Part shown: piece by piece, positions 48,167 to 55,758 of the stretch
Layout: every line of letters starts with the position of its first letter
Position numbering within the stretch: position 1 is the first letter of the stretch
Assembly: GCF_000421525.1 (NCBI RefSeq)
Contig: NZ_ATXE01000001.1
Location: 1,240,001-1,304,000, forward strand
Source: Aestuariimicrobium kwangyangense DSM 21549
GTDB lineage: Bacteria > Actinomycetota > Actinomycetes > Propionibacteriales > Propionibacteriaceae
DNA length: 64,000 nucleotides
Direction: 5' to 3'
Translations under genes and position numbers: made by a program
Notes under the pieces: generated by a model
What the model saw: only the letters and a program-made list of their open reading frames with translations
What the model was told of the DNA's origin: nothing
The model's database searches: none

Positions 48167-49276
48167 TCACACCCGGCGGTACTGCGCGTTCATGGGGCAG
48201 TCGAACGGGTCACGGGCGTGCAGTCCCACCTCGTTGAGGTATCGGACGACGATGCCGTAGGACGCCAGCAGGGTGGTCTCGGTGTAGGGCACGTTGTGCT
48301 TGCGGCAGTAGTCGCGGACGATGGCTCGGGCCTTGCCGAGGTGGGGGCGTGCCATGGTCGGGAAGAGGTGGTGCTCGATCTGGTAGTTGAGGCCGCCCAT
48401 CAGGAGGCTGGCCGCCCAGCCCCCGCGGATGTTGCGGGAGGTCCGCACCTGCTTGGTGAAGAAGTCCAGTCGGGCTCGCTTGTCGATGATCGGCATCCCG
48501 GTGTGGTTCGGCGCGAACGATGCGCCCATGTACACGCCGAACACCGCCACTTGCACGCCGACGAAGGCGAAGGCCATCCCCAGCGGCAGGAGCCAGAACA
48601 CGGGCACGAGAACTGCGGCGAAGCGCACGGCCAGCAGCACGATCTCCGTGGCCCTCTTGTCGACCTTCCCGCGGCCCAGCACGTGACGCACGCTGTGCAG
48701 GTGCAGGTTCAGGCCCTCGAGGGTGAGCAGCGGGAAGAACAGCCAACCCTGCCGCTTGGTGACCCACCGGAGCCAGCCCTTGGCCCGGCTGGCGTCCTCC
48801 TCCAGGAATGAGATGGTGTCGCGTTCGATGTCGGGGTCCTTGCCGACCCGATTGGGGTTGCCGTGGTGCCGCGAGTGCTTGTTCTGCCACCACGACAGCG
48901 ACAGCCCCACCACGCCCGTGGCCAGCAATCTGGCCAGGCGGTTGTTGTTCTCCCCGGATTCGAGGATCTGACGGTGGTCGGCCTCGTGTCCGACGAACGC
49001 GACCTGGGTGAAGATGATGCCCAGCGCCGCTGCGATCAGGAGCTGGAACCAGCTGTGCCCCAGCAGGATGAACCCGGCGATGCAGCCGCCCAGCCCGAGG
49101 GCCAGGATGGTGAGCAACAGGGCGTAGAACCAGCGCGCCCGCTTCATCAGTCCAAGACCCTTGGCGAGGGTCGACACCTCGACGAAGGCACGCAGCTGGG
49201 GTGGGAACGAGGCGGCGTCGACGTATTTCGAGGGGGTGTCCGTCGCGGGCGACGAACGAAGCAGCGTCTCGCTCAT
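48167..49276 (-). CDS. Membrane fatty acid desaturase
   Basis: Di-iron membrane desaturase of 369 aa. The three histidine boxes are intact: HEADH, HSRHH (NKHSRHHGNPN) and QIEHH (NYQIEHHLFPTM). QxxHH in the third box is typical of acyl-lipid front-end and omega-type desaturases of actinobacteria. Four or so membrane helices lie between the boxes. It would insert a double bond in membrane lipid acyl chains, using an electron donor not encoded nearby. I chose ATG 49276 (MSETLLRSS); upstream in-frame codons are not conserved-looking. It is divergent from coaE and its 3' end faces the importer's terminator. Confidence 0.9.
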   Translation of the reverse strand: MSETLLRSSPATDTPSKYVDAASFPPQLRAFVEVSTLAKGLGLMKRARWFYALLLTILALGLGGCIAGFILLGHSWFQLLIAAALGIIFTQVAFVGHEADHRQILESGENNNRLARLLATGVVGLSLSWWQNKHSRHHGNPNRVGKDPDIERDTISFLEEDASRAKGWLRWVTKRQGWLFFPLLTLEGLNLHLHSVRHVLGRGKVDKRATEIVLLAVRFAAVLVPVFWLLPLGMAFAFVGVQVAVFGVYMGASFAPNHTGMPIIDKRARLDFFTKQVRTSRNIRGGWAASLLMGGLNYQIEHHLFPTMARPHLGKARAIVRDYCRKHNVPYTETTLLASYGIVVRYLNEVGLHARDPFDCPMNAQYRRV

Positions 49277-49421
49277 GTCTGCTGCACCTGGCTCTCTGCT
49301 TGGTGGCGTGGGGACGCTTCGGCGTCGGTTCGGCCACGGGCTTGTGCCTACAGCTGATGCCAGTCTACCCGTCGGTGACAACGCCCACTGCGGGCAGCGC
49401 CCGATGCGCAAGACTGGTGGC

Positions 49422-50036
49422 ATGGCCCCTCATCCACCTCGCTCTGCGCAGCCGCGGCGGATCGGGCTGACGGGGGGAATCGCCTCGGGCAAGTCCACCG
49501 TTGCCGAGCGGCTGACCGAGTTGGGGGCCGTGGTGATCGATGCCGACGAGCTCGCCCGGCGCGTCGTTGAGCCCGGCACCGACGGCCTCGCCCAGGTGAT
49601 TGCCAGGTTCGGACCGCAGGTGGTGGGGGAGGGGGGCGGACTTGATCGGGCCCGCCTCGGTCAGATCGTCTTCGCGGACGACACCGCCCGCCGTGACCTC
49701 GAGGCGATCATCCACCCGCGGGTCCGGGCACTCGCGGCGACCCTTCGCTGTTGCCATCCCGGTCGGGTGGTGGTCGAGATGATCCCCCTGCTGGTCGAGA
49801 CAGGGCAGTCCGGCGCATTCGACGAGGTCATCGTCGTCGACCTTCCCGAGGATCTGCAGCGCGAACGTCTCGTCCGTCGTTCTGGTCTCACGCCGGCCGC
49901 GGCTGAGGCTCGGATACGGGCACAGGCGAGCCGCGACCAGCGGTTGACGGCCGCCACCACGGTGTTCGACAACTCCGGCGACAGGGCTGCGCTGATCGCA
50001 CAGGTCGACCAGTGGTGGCGTGAGCTGCACGCCTGA
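49422..50036 (+). CDS. coaE: Dephospho-CoA kinase
   Basis: Protein of 204 aa that phosphorylates the ribose 3'-OH of dephospho-CoA, the last step of CoA synthesis. P-loop GLTGGIASGKSTVAERL (about residues 16-32), VIDADELARRVVEPGTDGL, and the CoaE motif EMIPLLVETG are present. ATG 49422 is chosen because the family N-terminus starts just before RRIGLTGG; ATG 49404 would add six residues. There is no C-terminal UPF0157 extension of the sort fused to CoaE in mycobacteria. It lies downstream of rpsA in the conserved actinobacterial order, though importer and desaturase genes intervene. Confidence 0.94.
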   Translation: MAPHPPRSAQPRRIGLTGGIASGKSTVAERLTELGAVVIDADELARRVVEPGTDGLAQVIARFGPQVVGEGGGLDRARLGQIVFADDTARRDLEAIIHPRVRALAATLRCCHPGRVVVEMIPLLVETGQSGAFDEVIVVDLPEDLQRERLVRRSGLTPAAAEARIRAQASRDQRLTAATTVFDNSGDRAALIAQVDQWWRELHA

Positions 50037-50133
50037 CCCGGTTGTCGTTGAAGGTCAACTAACCCTCCGATGGGATTGACTGGACCCGTCACGCGCCTGC
50101 TCGGCGCAGTCCCCCCACTCCAAGGAGCGACCT

Positions 50134-51366
50134 GTGAGCTGCCCACGCTGCGGCACCGAACTGCCGGAGGCTGGACATTTCTGCCACGCCTGCGGTCACG
50201 ACCTCTCGGCGGGCGACGGCGCCCGTCGCTCCTTCGCGGCCAAACCCGACGAGCCGGTGCGTTCCTTCCGGCTGGTCTCGTCGATCATGCCGAAGGGTGC
50301 CGCCGAACGTCCCCGCACGTACCAGATCGCCTTTGGGGTGTCCTTCGTGGTCGCCGTGGTCGCCGCCCTGCTGGGTGCGCTTCCCGTGGCCATCCTCGTG
50401 GCGGCCCTGGCCATCCCCCTGATCTACATCGTCTACCTCTACGACGTGAACCTCTGGGAGGACGAACCCTTGCCGGTCACCGGTCTGGCGTTCGGACTCA
50501 CGTTCGCGCTGGCGGCCCTGTTCACGGTGGGGTGGACGACGCTGCGAGGTCCCCTGGTGAGTGCGCGCGCGTTCGACGCGGCAGCCACCCCGACGATGGC
50601 GGGGGTGCTGATCACCGCCTTGCTGGTGCCGGTCGTGGGTGAACTCATTCGGCAGGTGGGTCCAGTGGTGCTGGCGGCTCGACCGGAGTTCGACGACCTG
50701 ATGGACGGTCTCACCTTCGGGGTCATCTCGGGCGTGGCGTTCGCCACGGCCGACACCCTGGTCAAGCACTGGGACCTGCTGGGGCAGGGCTTCCACGCGC
50801 CCGGACAGAGCGCAGCCACCTGGGTGGCGCTGCTGGTGCTCGAGGGCTTCATCAAGCCGCTGGTGATCGGGACCGCTTCGGGCATCGCATGCGCAGAGTT
50901 CTCGGGACTGGGGAAGGGCTATGACGGCTTCACGGTGCGCTACCTGTTGGCAGTGCTCGAGGCCGTCGCCTGGAACGCTCTCTACTTCGGTGGCACCTAT
51001 CTGCTGAGCTTCGTGAGCCCTGTCTGGCTCGGTCTGGTTCTGTCCGTGGTGCTCGGGGGCGTGCTGCTCGGCGCACTGCTGATCAGGATCAGGGGAGTGC
51101 TGCAGACCGGTCTGGTCGAGGCAGCGCTCGAGGCCACCGCCCGTCATGGGGCCGGCGGCGTCGGTGTCGAGGGCGACCTCACCCATTGCGCCTCCTGCGA
51201 GATGCCGCTGCTCGGCGGGGCCGCGTTCTGCTCGAACTGTGGACTGGCACAGAAGTCCACGGTCAAGGGACGCCTGCACCCGCAACGCGCCGTGTTGGCA
51301 GGTGCAGGTCCAGCGCCCACCGCCCCCGATGATGCCCGCAACGATGATCTGGAGGCCCGCTCATGA
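50134..51366 (+). CDS. PrsW-like membrane protein flanked by two zinc ribbons
   Basis: Protein of 410 aa. It starts with a zinc ribbon (CPRCGTE...CHACGH, residues 3-21), continues with about eight to nine membrane helices (about 65-335), and ends with a second zinc ribbon (CASCEMP...CSNCGL, from Cys352). The membrane core resembles the PrsW protease family in FDDLMDGLTFGVISGVAFAT, but the catalytic motifs are degraded: GELIRQ stands where EExxK is expected and ATADTL where an E-N pair is usual. It may therefore be a non-peptidase relative. GTG 50134 has AAGGAGC at a 5-6 nt spacing. It overlaps the next gene by 4 nt (ATGA), so the two likely work together. Confidence 0.75.
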   Translation: MSCPRCGTELPEAGHFCHACGHDLSAGDGARRSFAAKPDEPVRSFRLVSSIMPKGAAERPRTYQIAFGVSFVVAVVAALLGALPVAILVAALAIPLIYIVYLYDVNLWEDEPLPVTGLAFGLTFALAALFTVGWTTLRGPLVSARAFDAAATPTMAGVLITALLVPVVGELIRQVGPVVLAARPEFDDLMDGLTFGVISGVAFATADTLVKHWDLLGQGFHAPGQSAATWVALLVLEGFIKPLVIGTASGIACAEFSGLGKGYDGFTVRYLLAVLEAVAWNALYFGGTYLLSFVSPVWLGLVLSVVLGGVLLGALLIRIRGVLQTGLVEAALEATARHGAGGVGVEGDLTHCASCEMPLLGGAAFCSNCGLAQKSTVKGRLHPQRAVLAGAGPAPTAPDDARNDDLEARS

Positions 51367-52256
51367 GCAGCCCGAACCAGCAGGGGCAGTCGCCTCAGTC
51401 GTGGGGCCAGCAGCCCGGTCAGCCCTATGGTCAGCAGCCCGGACAGCCCTACGGTCAGCAGCCCGGACAGCCCTATGGTCAGCAGCCCGGACAGCCCTAC
51501 GGCCAGGGCTTCACCGGATTCGGGGGTGCCCAACCCCCGCGACCAGGGCGTCGTCGTCCCGTGCTGGTGATGGTCGCCATCGGCATCGCGCTGGTCGTGG
51601 TGCTCGGAGTCGTGATCGGGCTGGTGGGGTCCAGGGGCAAGGCGGGGCCTGAACCGACCGCGCCCATCTCGGTGTCGACGCCCACGGCCCCGGAACCGAG
51701 CGACGAGCCCAGCCAGGAACCCTCCTCGAGCGCCTCGGCCGACACCTCCGGCGGCCCCAGCTCCAGCTCATCCGCCGAACCGACCGAAGAGCCGGGGACC
51801 AGCGACGAACTGGCCTTCCGCCACAACATCCGGGCATCCGTCCCCCAGGGATGGAAGGTGGTCAAGCACGACACCAGCAAGGACTTCTACGTGCTGCAGG
51901 CCGCGGACGGGTCGGCGCTGCTGCTGCAGACCTACACCCCGGGCGGGAAGGACGCTGCGGCAGAGGTCAAGGCGTACCTCGACCGTCAGGCGGAGAGCCT
52001 GCAGGACGCCAAGGCGGGCCAGGTCAAGGTGCACGAGGTCGACCCTGCCCTGTCCGTGGCCGAAGGGGCCTTGGCCGGTGTCGACGTCAGTTCGGGCGGG
52101 TCGGACACAGTCGTGATCGACACCGTGGTGTCGGTGCGCAAGGCCGATGACGCGGCCTTCGCCGCAACCCTCGTGGGCGGGAGCGTCGATGACGTCAAGG
52201 CCAACAGCGATGACTTCTCAAAGGTCGTCAACCAGGTCCTCTCGTCCATGGTCTGA
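51363..52256 (+). CDS. Membrane-anchored protein with QQPGQPYG repeats and Pro/Ser-rich linker
   Basis: I do not recognise a family for this 297-aa protein. The cytoplasmic N-terminus has four tandem QQPGQPYG repeats (about residues 16-47), one membrane helix follows (about 61-83, MVAIGIALVVVLGVVIGLVG), then an extracytoplasmic Pro/Ser/Glu/Thr-rich linker (90-150) and a ~145-residue C-terminal domain beginning RHNIRASVPQGWKVV, which recalls DUF1795/LpqN-like domains. ATG 51363 overlaps the upstream PrsW-like gene (ATGA). Pro/Gly/Gln/Tyr-rich cytosolic tails are common in actinobacterial membrane proteins. Confidence 0.75.
   Translation: MSSPNQQGQSPQSWGQQPGQPYGQQPGQPYGQQPGQPYGQQPGQPYGQGFTGFGGAQPPRPGRRRPVLVMVAIGIALVVVLGVVIGLVGSRGKAGPEPTAPISVSTPTAPEPSDEPSQEPSSSASADTSGGPSSSSSAEPTEEPGTSDELAFRHNIRASVPQGWKVVKHDTSKDFYVLQAADGSALLLQTYTPGGKDAAAEVKAYLDRQAESLQDAKAGQVKVHEVDPALSVAEGALAGVDVSSGGSDTVVIDTVVSVRKADDAAFAATLVGGSVDDVKANSDDFSKVVNQVLSSMV
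51408..51503 (+). repeat. Four 24-bp tandem repeats (coding, QQPGQPYG)
   Basis: Units start at 51408, 51432, 51456 and 51480. They are nearly identical at the DNA level, with changes only at a few third-codon positions (T/A and T/C). This is an in-frame coding minisatellite. Confidence 0.95.
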
Positions 52257-52320: not shown

Positions 52321-52365
52321 GATGGGCCGGCTTCCGCGGTGAGCGGAGGCCGGCCCATCAGTTTT
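52321..52365 (+). terminator. Strong intrinsic terminator before uvrB
   Basis: 17-bp arms GATGGGCCGGCTTCCGC (52321-52337) and GCGGAGGCCGGCCCATC (52343-52359), pairing throughout with one G-U pair, enclose a GGTGA loop and are followed by AGTTTT. It is about 65 nt after the 51363-52256 gene. The T-tract merges with the uvrB promoter. Confidence 0.9.
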
Positions 52366-52386
52366 GTCAGGGCTGCTGTCTACGCT
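52364..52386 (+). promoter_or_regulatory. uvrB promoter, RecA-independent (PafBC-type) DNA-damage class
   Basis: TTGTCA (52364-52369), 11 bp, then TACGCT (52381-52386), 7 nt before ATG 52394. This fits the actinobacterial RecA-independent damage motif tTGTCRgtg-N8-TAnnnT. The spacing is too short for an ordinary -35/-10 pair, which argues for an activator-dependent promoter. Confidence 0.7.
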
Positions 52387-52393
52387 GGTTCCC

Positions 52394-54487
52394 ATGCGTC
52401 CCAAGGAGAAGTTGCAGCGTCGAGTCGCGCCGTTCACGATGCAGGCCGACTTCGAGCCGTCCGGTGACCAGCCAGCGGCCATCGCCGAACTCGAACGCCG
52501 TATCCGCGCAGGCGAGAACGATGTCGTGCTGCTCGGGGCGACGGGCACGGGCAAGACAGCGACGGTGGCCTGGCTCGCCGAGCGGTTGCAGCGTCCCGTG
52601 CTGGTGATGCAACCCAACAAGACGCTGGCCGCCCAGTTCGCCAATGAACTGAGGCAGTTCTTCCCCGACAATGCGGTGGAGTACTTCGTCTCGTACTACG
52701 ACTACTACCAGCCCGAGGCCTACGTACCCCAGACGGACACCTACATCGAGAAGGACTCCTCGCTCAACGAGGAGGTCGAGAGGCTCCGCCACCAGGCGAC
52801 CCACTCGTTGTTCACCCGACGCGACTGCATCGTGGTCGCCACCGTGTCAGCCATCTACGGTCTGGGCACCCCCGAGGAGTACCTCGACCGGGCCATCCAG
52901 TTGCAGGTGGGCGACGAGTGGGACCGTGACGCCCTGCTGCGGGCGCTGGTGGGCATCCAGTACGCGCGCAACGACCTGGCAGGCACCCGCGGGACGTTCC
53001 GGGTGAAGGGAGACACCCTCGAGGTGTTCCCGATGTGGGAGGAGCTGGCCTGGCGGGTGGAGTTCTTCGGCGACGAGATCGAGGCACTCTCGACGCTCAA
53101 TCCGCTCACCGGAGAGGTGGTGACCGACGACGACGTGCTCGCCATCTTCCCCGCGACCCACTACTCCGCCGGTCCCGAGCGGATGGAGCGGGCCATCTCG
53201 AAGATCGAGGTGGAGCTCGAACAGCGCCTGGCCCAGCTCGAGAAGCAGGACAAGCTGCTCGAGGCCCAGCGGCTGCGCATGCGCACCAGCTACGACATCG
53301 AGATGATGCGCCAGATCGGAACCTGTTCGGGCATCGAGAACTACTCCCGCCACATCGACGGACGCGAGGCAGGCTCGGCCCCCAGCTGCCTGCTCGACTA
53401 CTTCCCCGAGGACTTCCTGCTGGTGGTCGACGAGTCGCACGTCACCGTTCCCCAGATCGGGGGCATGTTCGAGGGCGACATGTCTCGCAAGCGCACCCTG
53501 GTGGAGCACGGCTTCCGGCTGCCGAGCGCCATGGACAACCGTCCCCTCAAGTTCGAGGAGTTCGTCGACCGGATCGGGCAGACGGTCTACCTGTCGGCCA
53601 CCCCGGGCAAGTACGAGTTGGCACGGTCGAACGGTTTCGTCGAGCAGATCATCCGCCCGACCGGACTGGTCGACCCCGAAGTGGTGGTCAAGCCCACCAA
53701 GGGGCAGATCGACGACCTGATGGGCGAGATCCGTGGCCGGGTCGAGAAGAACGAGCGGGTGCTGGTGACCACCCTGACCAAGAAGATGGCCGAGGACCTG
53801 ACCGACTACCTGATGGAGAACGGAGTCCGCACCCGCTACCTGCACTCGGAGGTCGACACGCTGCGACGCATCGAGTTGCTGCGCGAACTGCGCATGGGCG
53901 AGTACGACGTGTTGGTCGGCATCAACCTTCTGCGAGAAGGGCTCGACCTGCCCGAGGTGAGCCTGGTGGCCATCCTCGACGCCGACAAGGAGGGCTTCCT
54001 GCGCTCGGATCGTTCCCTCATCCAGACCATCGGACGAGCCGCCCGCAACGTGGCCGGCCAGGTTCACATGTACGCCGACAAGATCACACCCTCGATGGAG
54101 TCCGCGATCGAGGAGACCAACCGACGACGTGCCATCCAGCAGGCCTACAACGCCGAGCACGGCATCGACCCGCAACCCCTGCGCAAGAAGATCGCCGACA
54201 TCACCGACATGCTCGCCCGGGAGGACGCCGACACCGAGAAGCTCGTCGACCAGGCGAGGGGGGGACGGCCCAACCGGGGACGGTCGCCGGTGCCGGCGGT
54301 CTCGCCCACCCGCCAGCTCGACACCGCGGGCATGGCGGCCAGCGAACTGGCAGACCTGGTGCAGGACCTCACCTCGCAGATGCACACCGCGGCAGCCGAA
54401 CTGCAGTTCGAGGTGGCCGCTCGCCTGCGAGACGAGATCTCGGACCTCAAGAAGGAACTGCGCCAGCTGATCGAGGCCAACCGCTGA
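52394..54487 (+). CDS. uvrB: Excinuclease ABC subunit B
   Basis: DNA-damage-verifying helicase-like subunit of nucleotide excision repair, 697 aa. Walker [17 protein letters not shown] (about residue 53), the beta-hairpin region [19 protein letters not shown]-type box VVDESHVT, and motif VI GRAARN are present, and a UVR domain ([20 protein letters not shown]) ends the protein and binds UvrC. The start is ATG 52394, 7 nt after the -10 box, so the mRNA is probably leaderless. It is a separate transcription unit: a terminator lies upstream and the terC riboswitch leader downstream. Confidence 0.97.
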
Positions 54488-54617: not shown

Positions 54618-54724
54618 GGCGGAGGGGAGTACTCCATTGCGCAGGGTCGTCAACACGGACGAGATCCCGGTCCTGTCGCCCGCCTGACGCTGCTGGCGCC
54701 ATCGGGTGGAAGAGACCTCCAGCC
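54618..54724 (+). ncRNA. yybP-ykoY (Mn2+) riboswitch upstream of terC
   Basis: The 5' conserved loop GGGGAGTA (54624-54631) and the 3' loop AGAGACC (54711-54717) match the conserved ends of the yybP-ykoY family. The closing stem pairs GGAGG (54621-54625) with CCTCC (54716-54720), extended by GGC/GCC. The family senses Mn2+ and often sits before terC/ykoY genes. The rest of the uvrB-terC gap (54488-54617) holds only a CTCGGC/GCCGAG hairpin and a weak -10-like CACAAT at 54608. Confidence 0.75.
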
Positions 54725-54759
54725 CTGATTCATGCTCAACTCTCCGTGAAGGGTGCTGG

Positions 54760-55758
54760 ATGAACGTCCACATGTACACCTGGGCCATCACCATCGTGGT
54801 GATGGTCGCCGTTCTCGCCATCGACGTGCTGGTCATCGGTCGCCGACCGCACGTCCCGTCCTTCAAGGAATGCCTGCTGGCCGTCCTGCTCTTCGTCGGT
54901 CTGGCGGTGATCTTCGGCATCGGCGTCACTGTGTTCAGCGGGGCAGCCTACGGAAAGCAGTTCTTCGCCGGGTGGTTGACCGAGTACAGCCTGTCGATAG
55001 ACAACCTGTTCATCTTCCTGATCATCATGGCCAAGATGCGGGTGCCCAAGCACCTCCAACAGTTCGCGCTGCTGATCGGCATCATCCTGGCGTTGGTCTT
55101 CCGCGGCATCTTCATCGCAATGGGCGCGGCCATCATCTCCGCCGCAGCATGGGTTTTCTTCATCTTCGGCGCGTTCCTGCTCTACACGGCGGTCGACCTG
55201 GTGAAGGACTTCATCGAGAAGGACACCGAGGAGGAGGCGACCGACAACTTCCTGCTGCGATGGGTCAAGCGTCGTTTCCGTTCCACCGAGGACTTCCACG
55301 GCACCCGCATGACCATCATCGACCGCGGCAAGCGCGTGATGACACCCATGCTGATCGTGATCATCGCGCTGGGTTCCACGGACCTGCTGTTCGCCCTCGA
55401 TTCGATCCCCGCCATCTACGGGCTCACCCAGGAGCCCTACCTGGTGTTCACCGCCAATGTGTTCGCGCTGATGGGCCTGCGCCAGCTGTACTTCCTGTTG
55501 GGCGACGTGCTGCAGAGGCTGGTGTACCTGCCGATCGGCCTGTCGGTGATCCTGGCGTTCATCGGTGTGAAGCTCGTGCTGCACGCCATGCACCACTACC
55601 ACTTCGACGAGAAGCTCGGCTTCTCCCTCGACTTCTCTATCGAGTTGTCGCTCGGGGTGATCGTGGTGACGCTGTTGGTGACCACCGTGGCGAGCCTGCT
55701 CAAGTCGAGGTCGGAGCGGACCGCCGAAGTTCCCGAGTCGGTCGACTCGCCGCTGTGA
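54760..55758 (+). CDS. TerC family integral membrane protein
   Basis: Membrane protein of 332 aa with about nine hydrophobic helices. The TerC signature EYSLSIDNLFIFLIIMAKM, with Asp in helix 3, and later GSTDLLFALDSIPAIYGL are present; the repeated acidic Asp-in-membrane motifs probably bind metal. TerC/YkoY proteins act in Mn2+ export and metalation of exported enzymes, which fits the Mn2+ riboswitch directly upstream. ATG 54760 has AAGGG at a 6-nt spacing. The cytoplasmic loop around residue 160 is charged (EKDTEEEATDNFLLRW). A GACGATCGCCG hairpin follows as terminator. Confidence 0.92.
   Translation: MNVHMYTWAITIVVMVAVLAIDVLVIGRRPHVPSFKECLLAVLLFVGLAVIFGIGVTVFSGAAYGKQFFAGWLTEYSLSIDNLFIFLIIMAKMRVPKHLQQFALLIGIILALVFRGIFIAMGAAIISAAAWVFFIFGAFLLYTAVDLVKDFIEKDTEEEATDNFLLRWVKRRFRSTEDFHGTRMTIIDRGKRVMTPMLIVIIALGSTDLLFALDSIPAIYGLTQEPYLVFTANVFALMGLRQLYFLLGDVLQRLVYLPIGLSVILAFIGVKLVLHAMHHYHFDEKLGFSLDFSIELSLGVIVVTLLVTTVASLLKSRSERTAEVPESVDSPL

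Follow-up and report, generated by a model that had tools for sequence, protein, structure and literature searches.

A conserved actinobacterial gene pair encoding a predicted catalytically dead PrsW relative with terminal zinc ribbons and a single-pass membrane partner

The stretch of DNA analysed here, referred to as the window, comprises 64,000 nucleotides of the genome of Aestuariimicrobium kwangyangense DSM 21549 and contains two adjacent genes, ORF1 and ORF2 (open reading frames 1 and 2), located between coaE and uvrB. The original prediction, made from the sequence alone, described ORF1 as a 410-residue protein with CxxC pairs at both ends and a PrsW-like core, overlapping by ATGA with the gene of a membrane partner; the coordinates of this overlap proved exact. 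ORF1 is homologous to PrsW proteases and forms a conserved pair with ORF2. Judged from the alignment, its catalytic site appears to be dead in all 65 aligned members of the family.

Two stretches of ORF1 match the zinc ribbon PF13240 in Pfam (E 3.4e-8), and all eight ribbon cysteines are invariant in 65/65 aligned members, in agreement with the terminal CxxC pairs. The 65-sequence profile consists of the window protein and the products of 64 of 66 named loci, which come from Propionibacteriaceae, Kribbella, Nocardioides, a Lapillicoccus metagenome-assembled genome (MAG) and other actinobacterial records; L072, cut by a contig end, and L077, with a broken frame, were left out. Against PF13367 (PrsW), ORF1 reaches 25.9 bits, a borderline match over the gathering cut-off of 23.5, and the L080 homologue, at 23.4 bits, falls marginally under it. 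A comparison of the ORF1 profile with 22 canonical PrsW sequences by hhalign gave a probability of 96.9 (E 1.3e-10) over 274 columns, so that the PrsW-like core described earlier was indeed found. The window ORF1 was not among the matches of the NCBIfam PrsW equivalog NF033739 at E 1 or less, and the L076 homologue scored 10.8 bits where the threshold is 225. A canonical PrsW is encoded elsewhere in the same genome (E 2.7e-34). Sequence matches of ORF1 in the PDB, four up to E 1 with 0.021 as the lowest value, were confined to short terminal stretches or zinc-ribbon-like parts.

The active site of the published PrsW model, as described in a passage of PMC4602095, consists of EExxK, HxxxD and another conserved histidine. 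In the ORF1 family the first glutamate of motif 1 is kept in 0/65 sequences (glycine in 33, serine in 23, alanine in 9), the second glutamate (E170) is retained in 60/65, and the lysine position is occupied by arginine in 52 and lysine in 8. The acidic position of motif 2 (FxxxE) is aspartate in 32, glutamate in 32 and glutamine in 1. At motif 3 a lysine is present in 65/65, compared with histidine in 22/22 canonical PrsW sequences. At motif 4 (HxxxN/D) the family has asparagine in 59, serine in 3 and leucine in 3, with no histidine in 65, again compared with 22/22, and the asparagine four residues downstream is absent from most members. The canonical set (22 kept of 31 loci) was chosen for an ORF showing EE..K and F..[TSA]E, and these columns are therefore 22/22 by construction; the two histidine columns were unselected. 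Three MAFFT modes agreed on the mapping of the motifs, and because hhalign places a gap at motif 3, the lysine-for-histidine match there rests on MAFFT. Despite the motif loss in 65/65, much of the core is strongly conserved. The original prediction held that the catalytic acidic residues were mostly lost. The loss of the site stands, but the acidic part requires correction, since it is the first glutamate and both histidines that have gone, while the second glutamate and the motif-2 acid (64/65) are kept.

This retention of E170 and D/E207 could be taken to mean that ORF1 remains proteolytic through a rearranged site, which K241 completes, and that ORF2, a single-pass neighbour and hence a natural substrate, is what it cleaves. 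We consider this improbable in view of the loss of the first glutamate and of both histidines throughout the family. Moreover, among 15 distant rows of a further alignment (A3), E170 is gone in all 15 and the motif-2 acid in 13, yet both ribbons are kept in 14; the exception, L122, has none. In L119, which groups with the nearer rows, the N-terminal ribbon is absent.

In the model of ORF2, an N-terminal tail of low confidence is followed by a single helix (67-88) and by a C-terminal domain with a predicted local distance difference test score (pLDDT) of about 95. For this domain Foldseek found PsbP (E 5.5e-6) and LpqN (2.9e-4), and the Z scores were 13.4 for Mog1, 13.1 for Apa and 11.9 for LpqN. 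The outer domain is thus modelled as a member of the PsbP/Mog1/LpqN fold, and the single helix and LpqN-like outer domain proposed earlier were right at the fold level. The QQPGQPYG repeat is also present, but it forms the N-terminus of ORF2, before the helix. No Pfam family scored over its cut-off on ORF2, the only ones listed being DUF3499 (0.025) and INV_N (0.031). Sequence matches of ORF2 in the PDB (prion protein, DotF and similar) lie in the tail, linker or helix and were discarded. A partial match to TIGR03931 (T7SS_Rv3446c; E 5.5e-9) could suggest that ORF2 is associated with type VII secretion and that the pair is an accessory of that system. We regard this as very improbable, as the match reaches 36.6 bits against a cut-off of 47.6 and includes the low-complexity linker, and the other scanned partners either match TIGR03931 no better than E 0.025 or give no match.

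Conservation of the pair was followed through the named loci. Five of the 66 (L025, L044, L071, L072, L079) end in or soon past ORF1, and in four of these the overlapping start and Gln/Pro-rich codons are visible. In the remaining, testable loci a hidden Markov model (HMM) of the ORF2 C-terminal domain matches downstream of ORF1 in 61/61; as 33 of the 34 partners used to build it came from these loci, those 33 are found by construction. The pair sought in other actinobacteria by the original prediction is accordingly conserved. In 54/61 the ORF2-type domain is in frame with a start codon that shares bases with the ORF1 stop. The exceptions are L026, with a start one base off, L066 and L073, which use a different start or change frame, L075 and L028, where tail and domain are in different frames through apparent frameshifts, and L030 and L034, which have masked runs within the tail. 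Of the 66 named loci, 52 have coaE upstream of ORF1, one more (L040) has it directly downstream of the pair, and 47 have uvrB downstream of ORF1. Granulicoccus phenolivorans (L040 / L011 and L022, G010) has a copy of ORF1 on each side of coaE, with about 3 kb between the two.

The two genes also occur fused, with a recognisable ORF2 ectodomain, in two distant genomes. In G157 they form one ORF of 687 residues, whose C-terminal part matches the ORF2 HMM at 3.4e-22, and G200 carries a ribbonless 537-residue fusion (7e-17 for the C-terminal part). Both split and fused forms are present in genus g32 of family f7, probably Mycobacterium, judging by gene order. Searches with ORF1 matched 19/37 relatives and 47/117 genomes of the order (E 1e-15). 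In the class 66/394 genomes were matched, mostly via the ribbons alone; by inspection of the matches, an ORF1 core occurs in about 15/394, the others being ribbon-only except for one canonical-type PrsW. The phylum search gave 16/396 at E 1e-8, of which seven weak matches (G038, G468, G500, G628, G648, G658, G774) were not accepted as family members.

Table. Genes and features at the locus (window positions).
Feature	Position	Strand	Description
ORF1	50134-51366	+	GTG start, 410 aa; membrane protein of PrsW fold, predicted to be catalytically dead, flanked by two zinc ribbons
ORF2	51363-52256	+	ATG start, 297 aa; single-pass partner; start overlaps ORF1 stop (ATGA)
Likely ribosome-binding site of ORF1, AAGGAG	50122..50127	+	6 nt 5' of GTG; read from sequence
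N-terminal zinc ribbon of ORF1 (residues 3-24; C3 C6 C17 C20)	50140..50205	+	PF13240; Cys 65/65
PrsW-fold core of ORF1 (residues 54-337)	50293..51144	+	8 long predicted helices; AlphaFold model, hhalign
Motif 1 of ORF1, G169-E170-L-I-R173	50638..50652	+	EExxK in PrsW
Motif 2 acidic residue of ORF1, D207	50752..50754	+	E in PrsW
Motif 3 of ORF1, invariant Lys241	50854..50856	+	His in canonical PrsW (22/22)
Motif 4 of ORF1, Asn281	50974..50976	+	His in canonical PrsW (22/22)
C-terminal zinc ribbon of ORF1 (C352 C355 C366 C369)	51187..51252	+	PF13240; Cys 65/65
QQPGQPYG-encoding 24-nt tandem repeats, ORF2 N-terminal tail	51408..51506	+	4.1 copies
Membrane helix of ORF2, the only one predicted (residues 67-88)	51561..51626	+	basic RPGRRRP before helix
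PsbP/Mog1/LpqN-fold domain of ORF2 (residues about 145-297)	51795..52253	+	presumed extracytoplasmic; pLDDT about 95
Fatty-acid desaturase	48170-49423	-	flanks coaE-ORF1-ORF2-uvrB block; ordinary neighbour
coaE, dephospho-CoA kinase	49404..50036	+	Pfam CoaE 5.7e-53; upstream neighbour
uvrB	52364..54487	+	downstream neighbour
TerC-family membrane protein	54706-55758	+	other flank of coaE-ORF1-ORF2-uvrB block; ordinary neighbour

In line with the earlier statement, a scan limited to the window found no sigma or anti-sigma gene in the five neighbours that it covered: coaE, uvrB, the fatty-acid desaturase, terC and the gene of a solute-binding protein. Zinc-ribbon PrsW fusions have been known since Zhang et al. 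2012, a passage of which (PMC3482391) proposes them as likely signalling peptidases. The pair could likewise be a sensor that signals through the ribbons to a sigma factor or some other regulator in the cytosol, and the ribbons and disordered tail, presumed to be cytosolic, together with a domain outside, would suit such a role. We nevertheless assign it a low probability, given the sigma and anti-sigma result and the loss of the catalysis that site-1 signalling requires. Of the earlier suggestion of a sensor or scaffold derived from a site-1-type protease, the scaffold is the likely part.

The AlphaFold model of ORF1, computed from a 40-row alignment, has a mean pLDDT of 79.3, a predicted template modelling score of 0.75 and eight long helices. 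With an even number of helices both ribbons should lie on one side of the membrane, presumably the cytosolic one; the loop charges were not decisive for orientation. When VIA-align was run on the candidates from Foldseek, APH-1 of gamma-secretase ranked first (5a63 chain C, Z 15.3, 5.1 A, 219 residues). A second APH-1 chain (8oqy chain C) reached Z 13.7, and two chains of the multipass translocon and BOS complex, 7tm3_6 and 9c7u_C, reached 13.9 and 12.9; from the entry titles and chain length we take these two to be TMEM147. The next-ranked fold was a CcmABCD chain at Z 9.3. Rce1 (4cad) was rejected as a fold for ORF1, with just Z 4.8. Helical bundles readily reach middling Z values, and the APH-1 and TMEM147 matches are thus support rather than proof.

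Where the pair lies away from coaE, its neighbours recurrently encode exported peptidases. Of 31 loci without coaE, 27 had an M4, S53 or C11 peptidase gene close to the pair by tblastn, with queries drawn from the peptidase-linked loci themselves and scans that covered these three families only. Neither coaE nor uvrB accompanies any of the 18 loci with G handles. When 837 ORFs from 85 loci were scanned with phmmer, all 29 peptidase matches obtained lay in loci without coaE. At ten named loci (L074, L076, L077, L078, L080, L081, L083, L084, L085, L088; five scanned by Pfam, all ten by tblastn) a divergent gene, cut by the contig in L077, is related to a lipoprotein of ~950-1030 residues with thermolysin M4 domains. 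In G157 a clostripain gene (C11, E 4.1e-20) lies immediately upstream of the fused gene. An S53-related gene is present at 14 loci of eight f7/g32 genomes (tblastn, with Pro-kumamolisin and/or subtilase in Pfam for those scanned), and it overlaps ORF1 by exactly 4 nt at 8/12 f7/g32 loci with clear ORFs and at 3/3 in a later set. At two g90 loci a pair of ORF1-type copies flanks an S53-type gene, with a Pfam subtilase match at one locus and no Pfam match at the other, and the later loci L224-L226 also have an S53-type gene, without a Pfam match in L224. Among the peptidases read, the HExxH zinc motif of M4 is intact in 5/5, the S53 serine motif is matched in 6/8, and a lipobox or N-terminal hydrophobic stretch is visible.

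Several further features of these neighbourhoods were observed. The M4 lipoproteins of the ten loci combine an FTP-like propeptide, which scores over or near the cut-off, with C-terminal repeats resembling beta-propellers, and their genes occur as tandem pairs in L081 and L084. In L120 (G129) and L121 (G191) the two ORF1-type genes lie some 7 kb from each other and enclose an S53-type gene and the gene of a ~800-residue membrane protein (weak DUF418). As many as three S53-ORF1-ORF2 modules occur per f7/g32 genome (L123-L136), in split and fused forms, and the f7/g32 outer domains start with CPPxCG in 9/9 aligned (A4). One MAG has three ORF1-type matches (L222, L223; G579); in L223 a YNCE-type propeller protein with a lipobox is encoded one gene from ORF1, and an RTX-repeat protein is encoded nearby. 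The ribbonless fusion of G200 (L122, 5402-7015) lies between a patatin-like phospholipase and a 1431-residue nSTAND1-WD40 protein, which may point to a locus of defence or conflict.

We propose that ORF1 is a pseudoprotease scaffold that acts with ORF2, its dedicated partner, in one complex, most likely serving exported or membrane-tethered proteins; on balance we consider this probable. ORF1 would be a non-cutting scaffold with the eight-helix PrsW fold of an intramembrane protease and its ribbons in the cytosol, perhaps holding a buried polar network (E170, D/E207, the invariant K241 and N281) in place of the active site. ORF2 would extend its disordered Gln/Pro/Gly tail into the cytosol and place its PsbP/Mog1/LpqN-fold domain outside. 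The two proteins would be produced together as a single complex that assists the folding, release, activation or control of its clients, which in the distant relatives are likely to be the peptidases encoded beside the pair. The homology, the motif loss, the pairing, the fusions, the folds and the neighbours are observations, whereas the physical complex, the action of ORF1 without catalysis, the membrane orientation and the client role are inferred.

Several observations weigh against this proposal. Neither an M4, an S53 nor a C11 match was found by tblastn near the pair in the 53 of 66 named loci that lie beside coaE, nor in four of the 31 loci without coaE (L029, L073, L079, L122). In L222, from the same MAG as L079, the gene adjoining ORF1 encodes a Vps10/BNR-repeat protein. 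In a quick tree of 68 cores the house, M4, S53 and C11 neighbourhoods require three changes, the minimum, and the clades are few; many independent acquisitions of peptidases are therefore unsupported. The window genome gave no match to the S53 query, with 4/37 relatives matched, and none to the linked M4, with only two candidates scored there and C11 not searched. The function proposed for the pair in that genome is thus inferential. M4 relatives are common in the class (125/296 genomes) and the ORF1 core is rare, so that the presence of M4 alone is uninformative. The partner ectodomain of f7/g32, except in G200, has no detectable relation to ORF2 (hhalign probability 5.9; HMM E 0.08-0.32, three tested). 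A Foldseek search of ORF1 against the PDB gave nothing below E 0.2. Finally, 18 of the 37 relatives have no ORF1 match, and the gene seems dispensable in the family.

It is conceivable, on this evidence, that the membrane scaffold complex exists and the adjacent peptidases are incidental, its real job being, for example, envelope assembly or the handling of lipids or the cell wall. The peptidase-free loci beside coaE and the small number of peptidase clades favour this, as does the occurrence of LpqN- or MTC28-like folds in mycobacterial envelope or secreted proteins, according to structure titles. We consider it rather unlikely, since three unrelated peptidase families occur at the same place and the S53 gene repeatedly overlaps ORF1 by exactly 4 nt. 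Under midpoint rooting, the root itself not being inferred, the coaE-type clades are nested inside peptidase-linked clades, which fits a relocation of the pair.

The pseudoprotease scaffold that we favour may be taken one step further, although this version is tentative and, in our estimate, doubtful. The pair could be a bacterial machine like APH-1:nicastrin or TMEM147:nicalin, in which a dead PrsW scaffold and its ectodomain partner escort, activate or restrain tethered exported peptidases, with the client swapped among S53, M4 and C11. If true, inactive intramembrane-protease folds would have been turned into scaffolds in bacteria along lines similar to those followed in eukaryotes. Important eukaryotic scaffolds include such inactive relatives of intramembrane proteases, namely APH-1, the iRhoms and, judged by fold, TMEM147. 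With a conserved, dead PrsW clade that has its own partner gene and, beside its divergent members, recurrent peptidases, genetics could test in bacteria how a protease turned into a scaffold and which client it serves. No description of the ORF1/ORF2 family was found in the open-licence PMC literature. The fusion of zinc ribbons to PrsW was already known; the clade-wide loss of catalysis, the partner, the fusions of the two genes and the peptidase neighbours did not turn up in the literature searched.

Of the known systems close to the pair, the PrsW site-1 protease (PF13367; Bacillus subtilis PrsW) shares a homologous core with ORF1. ORF1 differs in the family-wide replacement of the first glutamate and both histidines, in the ribbons at both ends and in the dedicated partner gene. 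The zinc-ribbon-fused proteins of Zhang et al. (PMC3482391) combine, like ORF1, a PrsW domain with zinc-ribbon domains, but the passages concerned mention no lost catalysis, partner or exported-peptidase neighbours. ORF2 shares the fold of its outer domain with LpqN, MTC28, Mog1 and PsbP, to which it adds the membrane helix and repeat tail. Among eukaryotic pseudoproteases, iRhoms escort ADAM17, and their analogy to ORF1 lies in the lost catalysis only, the fold being unrelated. They are described, in a passage of PMC6451368, as catalytically inactive relatives of an intramembrane protease.

The layout of APH-1/nicastrin and TMEM147/nicalin, a polytopic non-cutting fold with a single-pass ectodomain protein, resembles that of ORF1 and ORF2. 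The ectodomain of ORF2, with its PsbP/Mog1/LpqN fold, differs in fold from that of nicastrin and nicalin. In a passage of PMC7505659, TMEM147-nicalin is itself modelled on APH1-nicastrin as a polytopic subunit with a single-pass partner that has a luminal domain. APH-1, PrsW and the type II CAAX proteases are regarded as homologous in a passage of PMC6588880, where motif 1 of APH-1 is given as QExxR, so that the first glutamate is also absent there. The parallels between APH-1 and ORF1 are the highest Z score of the structural comparison, which is suggestive only, and a motif 1 without its first glutamate; as described in that source, APH-1 keeps two conserved histidines, which ORF1 does not.

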